A DNA stretch of 32,769 nucleotides from Anaerolineae bacterium (GTDB lineage Bacteria; Chloroflexota; Anaerolineae; Promineifilales; Promineifilaceae), in assembly GCA_015486215.1 (NCBI GenBank), contig WFSA01000154.1, forward strand, positions 1 through 32,769, written 5' to 3'. Below are positions 4,673-13,155 of this stretch, piece by piece; within the stretch, counting starts at the first letter, position 1, and the number at the start of each line of letters is the position of its first letter. The position numbers and the translations under genes are program-made. The notes beneath the pieces are model-generated. The model was not told the DNA's origin. It ran no database searches and worked only from the letters and a program-made list of their open reading frames with translations.

Positions 4673-4877
4673 TAATAGCGGAATTCACGAGGGCAAATCC
4701 ACTCCTGACTCACCCTGTTAGGATTATAAGAGGGAGTACCCTCCTTGACAATACTTTCAAGTAGGGCGATTGCCTACTCCAAAATTGGACACTGATTGCA
4801 CAAATGAACACAGATAAAAAGATCAAAATCAGTGAAATCAGCGCAATCCGTGTTCACTCTACCCTTATCTCTGCACG
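4673..4877. other. Non-coding spacer between PRC-barrel and lipoprotein genes
   Basis: There is no gene here. It holds a small palindrome GAGGGAGTACCCTC (about 4731-4744), a fragment TAGGGCGATTGC (about 4762-4773) resembling the tip of the element at 12874, and the interspersed repeat at 4778-4856. No convincing terminator with a T-run is visible for the lipoprotein gene that ends at 4878. Confidence 0.5.
4778..4856. repeat. 79-bp interspersed repeat, copy 1
   Basis: It matches 13065-13143 over its full 79-bp length with few substitutions and no gaps. Shared landmarks are TCCAAAATTGGACA at the left, CAGATAAAAAGATCAAAATC in the middle, and a terminal GTGTTCA here against GTGTCCA there. Part of it is inverted-repeat (GAACACAGAT with ATCCGTGTTC), so it could form a hairpin in RNA. 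Function unknown. Confidence 0.8.
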
Positions 4878-12711: not shown

Positions 12712-12740
12712 AAAAAATACGACTAGACAGTCATACGCTG

Positions 12741-12814
<74 letters not shown>

Positions 12815-12826
12815 TTAACCGTCAGG

Positions 12827-12854
12827 ATTATAAAGCAACCTCCATAAACGGCAA
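12827..12854 (-). promoter_or_regulatory. Promoter of tRNA-Pro
   Basis: The minus strand has TTGCCG (12849-12854), a 16-bp spacer, then TATAAT (12827-12832). The expected start lies a few bases before the tRNA 5' end at 12814. Together with the terminator it makes a monocistronic tRNA unit. The 12-bp duplication of the neighbouring element starts 8 bp upstream of the -35 box. Confidence 0.7.
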
Positions 12855-12873
12855 GTATTGCACGTTCCAAAAT

Positions 12874-13060
12874 AGGGCGATTGCAACCTCGCCTTAATTC
12901 GTGATCGTGATCGTTTTCGTGATCGAAAATCGAAAAAACCGATCACGACAATCATAACGTATAAATTCCCCGCAATTGACATGTTATGTCAATTGCGGAG
13001 CTGCTAAAAACGGTGTAAATTTGGAATTTAATAGTGCGATTTGGAGGTTGCAATCGCCCT
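12874..13060. mobile_element. MITE, 187 bp, 17-bp perfect tips and 12-bp duplication
   Basis: Tips AGGGCGATTGCAACCTC (12874-12890) and GAGGTTGCAATCGCCCT (13044-13060) are perfect inverted repeats. They are flanked by identical 12-bp direct repeats ACGTTCCAAAAT (12862-12873 and 13061-13072). Inside are GTGATCGTGATCG repeats and a perfect 13-bp hairpin CCGCAATTGACAT / ATGTCAATTGCGG (12970-12982, 12986-12998). There is no coding capacity. The long duplication suggests an IS4-like or similar transposase, which is inference. It is inserted at the left edge of the 79-bp repeat at 13065. Confidence 0.9.
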
Positions 13061-13064
13061 ACGT

Positions 13065-13143
13065 TCCAAAATTGGACATCGATTGTACAGATGGACACAG
13101 ATAAAAAGATCAAAATCAGTGGAATCAGCGTGATCTGTGTCCA
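13065..13143. repeat. 79-bp interspersed repeat, copy 2
   Basis: Aligns without gaps to 4778-4856. Its ends form an inverted repeat (GGACACAGAT with ATCTGTGTCC). Its left end overlaps the 12-bp target duplication of the element at 12874-13060, so that element landed at the edge of this older repeat. It lies 12 bp beyond the DEAD-box helicase stop codon. Confidence 0.8.
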
Positions 13144-13155
13144 ACTTCAAGCCAT

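Follow-up and report, generated by a model that had tools for sequence, protein, structure and literature searches.

The window, by which is meant the whole stretch of 32,769 nucleotides that was analysed, carries next to a tRNA-Pro gene a short element that is very probably an ISAs1-family MITE of type I (a non-autonomous miniature transposon), moved in trans and giving rise to a 10-bp target duplication. At least 50 near-identical copies of this element, designated family A, are present in this Chloroflexota genome, and they constitute an ordinary ISAs1-type MITE family, a new member of a known transposon type. The element spans positions 12873-13061 (no strand assigned), i.e. 189 bp with its own outermost T and A counted in, and is bounded by 18-bp terminal inverted repeats, TAGGGCGATTGCAACCTC at 12873-12890 on the forward strand and its exact complement at 13044-13061 on the reverse strand. 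An earlier, sequence-only reading had described a recent gene-less insertion of 187 bp with 17-bp perfect tips. The element is real and devoid of genes as described, and the 17-bp tips do occur at 12874-12890 and 13044-13060, but the palindromic match in fact covers 18 bp (12873-12890 with 13044-13061), and the size and borders had been misread. Recency of the insertion was borne out, since the window copy is 98.4% identical to the family consensus and among the best-preserved of 54 aligned copies, which is in keeping with its late insertion.

The interior contains, as was noted earlier, GTGATCG-type repeats (about 12899-12959), which together form an imperfect inverted repeat, and a 13-bp hairpin (12970-12998, arms at 12970-12982 and 12986-12998) that is perfect in the window copy; neither is assigned a strand. 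Perfection of the hairpin was rejected as a conserved feature, as it is confined to the window copy and very few others, while the family consensus and nearly all other copies exhibit a mismatch (CACAT/ATGTC). Copy lengths within family A often vary by about 6 bp, and these steps would fit the gain or loss of a GATCGT-type hexamer.

Abundance of the element was estimated from both its whole length and its tips. At least 40 matches to a 211-bp query were obtained in the window's own genome, many of them full-length, and the tip pattern with up to 2 mismatches gave 306 matches (158 forward, 148 reverse) in this 4.1-Mb genome with none for the reversed control pattern. Hence, about 150 elements are implied, and elements with these tips appear to have been amplified to roughly 150 copies. 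Copies were studied in stretches taken from the genome, comprising 206 unique ends, and their interiors fall into at least two families, A and the approximately 150-bp family B, which begins TAGGGCGATTGCAACCTCCAAAATTGGACACTGATT. Outside this genome, the tip pattern was absent from the 400 genomes sampled throughout the phylum, and viral contigs contained 22 scattered tip matches with no element-like pair accompanied by a duplication. No published description of this MITE family was found in the open-access literature on ISAs1 and Chloroflexi MITEs.

Other repeats were observed in the same stretches. An abundant repeat with GTATCTTCTCA-type ends (L021 1325-1651, where it sits inside a family A MITE, and also L306, L313 and others) probably represents a distinct MITE family. 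Several MITE copies (L009, L012, L032, L044, L051, L309 and L315), some of which stand near contig ends, abut a common flank similar to AACTTAGGCCAAGCAATACT, which suggests another repeat in which these MITEs are often found. At L062, a CRISPR-like array (repeat CGGTTCATCCCCACGGGTGTGGGGAAAAC, about 1890-2200) adjoins a transposase fragment and a copy of MITE A.

The earlier description also required revision as to the length of the target duplication. The 12-mer ACGTTCCAAAAT is indeed present on both sides, at 12862-12873 and 13061-13072, and had been taken as a rare 12-bp duplication that sets this family apart. If ACGTTCCAAAAT were part of the element, flanks of other copies would always include it; upon inspection flanks were found to differ among copies, which identifies ACGTTCCAAAAT as target DNA rather than element sequence, and the insertion is upheld. 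Its duplicated portion is nevertheless shorter. When the 12 bases on each side of every copy were compared position by position, 27 copies with still-matching flanks were informative, a filter passed by randomly paired flanks in 0.05% of trials. Among these 27 copies, agreement is 93-100% at positions 2-11 of the putative 12-mer, but just 52% and 37% at positions 1 and 12. A T adjoins AGGG in 64 of 67 copies and an A comes after CCCT in 61 of 67, irrespective of the target, and hence the outermost T and A are the element's own bases, which accounts for the low agreement at positions 1 and 12. Thus, the true duplication is the 10-bp CGTTCCAAAA, with copies at 12863-12872 and 13062-13071 (no strand assigned), and the 12-bp match in the window is this duplication plus neighbouring bases that match by chance, as seen in a minority of copies. 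The claim that duplication length distinguishes the family therefore fails: it is 10 bp in most copies and 8 or 9 bp in a minority, as is normal for ISAs1-family elements.

Assignment to the ISAs1 family came from elements of relatives that carry a transposase. Using PF13808, the ISAs1-associated domain, as query, five ISAs1 transposase genes recognised by NF033564 (the NCBIfam ISAs1 transposase model) were found in the same taxonomic order between AGGGCGATTGCAT-type tips, with scores of 377-427 bits against the NCBI ISAs1 cut-off of 70. Tips at L262-L266 read AGGGC(G/A)(A/T)TTGCAT; one of the five gene-bearing loci (L263) has T...A ends with an exact 10-bp duplication, L264 has an 8-bp duplication, and at the other three no duplication was found. 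NCBI-named copies of ISAs1 and ISPa60 on plasmids likewise possess CAGGGC tips and exact 10-bp duplications, and TAGGGCGATTGCA in the window element has the (C)AGGGC start of ISAs1 terminal inverted repeats. Matching tips in the relatives, together with the tips and duplications of ISAs1 and ISPa60, make it well supported by sequence comparison that the ends of the window element are of the ISAs1 type. Overall, the likeness to the ISAs1 family (ISAs1, ISPa60 and the Chloroflexota relatives; NF033564) extends to Y/CAGGGC tips and 10-bp, sometimes 8-9-bp, duplications, with 10 bp in the 27 informative copies of the present family and 8-9 bp in a minority. Differences are that the outermost base of the window family is usually T rather than C, and that the element is 189 bp long as compared to about 1.2-1.45 kb and lacks a transposase gene, for which reason it is classed as an ISAs1-family MITE and not as an IS. 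An autonomous counterpart, which the sequence-only reading had proposed to look for, was found in relatives with the same first 12 tip bases, but was not detected in this genome; no autonomous element whose tips read exactly AGGGCGATTGCAACCTC was found, as the relatives' tips diverge after these 12 bases. For the closest cyanobacterial ISAs1 hit (L320), ISKpn31 (L322), L324 and L325, the flanks examined revealed no clear tips accompanied by a duplication.

Comparison with known MITEs leads to the same placement. Type I MITEs share terminal repeats with an IS (PMC3542288 describes how types I and II are distinguished), and the present elements resemble them in being short, gene-less and non-autonomous, with terminal inverted repeats of an IS family and many dispersed copies with target duplications, but differ in that only relatives, and not the genome bearing the MITEs, yielded the matching IS. 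In the Chloroflexi MAG Go_Eff_bin_125 and related MAGs, MITEs of similar size (128-203 bp) have YAGGGCGATTGCATACTC tips and exact 10-bp duplications (observed at more than 20 sites), although beyond base 12 their tips differ from the present ones and their interiors, where shown, look unrelated.

The IS4/IS231-type group is known for 10-12-bp duplications. A MITE mobilised by a transposase of that group would fit the duplication length, and DDE_Tnp_1 (PF01609) genes do occur in this genome and its relatives. Such an origin is nonetheless extremely unlikely, since the tips and duplications match ISAs1 elements instead, and the PF01609 genes examined in this genome and in ten relatives have different tips; among them, no transposase without the ISAs1 domain was bounded by AGGGCGATTGCA tips. 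One DDE_Tnp_1 element seen in the course of this work (L061 565-2301) has a 446-aa open frame and CTGGAGTCTGGCGA-type ends, and its duplication, TTCTTAA, measures 7 bp.

The genomic location of the window copy involves both an older MITE and the tRNA gene. The tRNA-Pro (CGG) gene lies at 12740-12814 on the reverse strand, and its sigma70-like promoter-like site at 12827-12854 on the same strand consists of TTGCCG, a 16-nt spacer and TATAAT. The -35 box, at 12849-12854, is separated by 8 bp from the duplication, as the earlier reading had placed it. Since the duplication restores the adjacent 10 bp, the insertion has left the sequence upstream of the -35 box intact for 18 bp. This proximity, along with strong folding of the element, could suggest that the repeat is no transposon but a conserved sequence with a regulatory or structural function, such as an action on the transcription of tRNA-Pro. 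Such a role is nevertheless very improbable as an explanation of the repeat: dozens of copies stand at unrelated sites and each has a target duplication of its own, conservation does not extend to the perfect hairpin, and just one promoter-like site, which belongs to the tRNA itself, was found in the region. A later effect of the inserted transposon on tRNA-Pro transcription is possible, and nothing here lends it support.

On the other side of the insertion lies what had been called an older 79-bp repeat, which is genuine, but here measures about 90 bp and is a truncated older MITE of family B with the same tips (13062-13150, forward strand). A probable left-tip remnant of this family B copy is located at 12857-12872 (forward strand), to the left of the insertion. 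Joining the flanks reconstructs the empty site, and this sequence can be aligned with family B from its eighth base onward (ATTGCA...TCCAAAATTGGACA...), which places the new element within the left tip of the older truncated copy. The duplicated bases and all sequence rightward are clearly family B, while the six matching bases at the far left, outside the duplication, are weak evidence for it. A second truncated family B MITE, with the tip AGGGCGATTGCCTACTC, is present in the window at 4762-4856.

Taken in sequence, an ISAs1-type DDE transposase acting in trans would have recognised the YAGGGCGATTGCA ends of the element, mobilised it and inserted it at a cut in the target DNA with a 10-bp stagger, and subsequent gap repair would have left CGTTCCAAAA on either side. 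The window copy would in this way have entered the tip of an older MITE with matching ends, at a point 8 bp upstream of the -35 box of tRNA-Pro.

Insertion next to an existing tip is the sole mildly unusual feature of this MITE family. Among the 206 unique ends, eight element pairs stand 9-16 bp apart, tip to tip, and just one further match was observed at another short distance. With each adjacent pair counted from both ends, these were set against a chance expectation of approximately 0.6 end matches at 9-16 bp (206 ends x 8 positions x 0.00039), although two of the eight partners, at a spacing of 9, have weak tips and may be chance matches. MITE pairs in a row with a copy of the target duplication between them are seen at L045 (1284-1615), L089 (469-1055) and L070 (846-1210), and at L089 and a relative's locus (L070/L210) the target is present three times, as target-element-target-element-target. 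One tentative explanation, which we consider rather doubtful, holds that the ISAs1 transposase of this lineage preferentially inserts beside its own ends, with new MITEs entering the 10-bp duplicated target of an existing copy and building target-A-target-B-target arrays. Re-use of a preferred target, tandem duplication by recombination and directed insertion would each give the adjacent-pair pattern, and at L045, where the visible parts of both copies are alike, tandem duplication is likely.

Within the window's genome, no ISAs1 transposase was detected with PF13808, NF033564 (E up to 1) or a relative's protein, and the NF033564 search was strongly positive in four relatives. Consequently, the MITEs of this genome are probably stranded. 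The assembly is 96% complete and consists of 341 contigs, and several of these break off close to such repeats, so that unassembled DNA may harbour a helper; unless it does, the copies are probably relics of earlier activity that can no longer move.

Thus, a high-copy repeat of a Chloroflexota genome can be assigned to a known transposase family with its duplication length corrected, and the clustering of new insertions at old tips provides a clue to target choice by ISAs1 elements. In this organism, some 150 mini-transposons seem to have outlived their helper.
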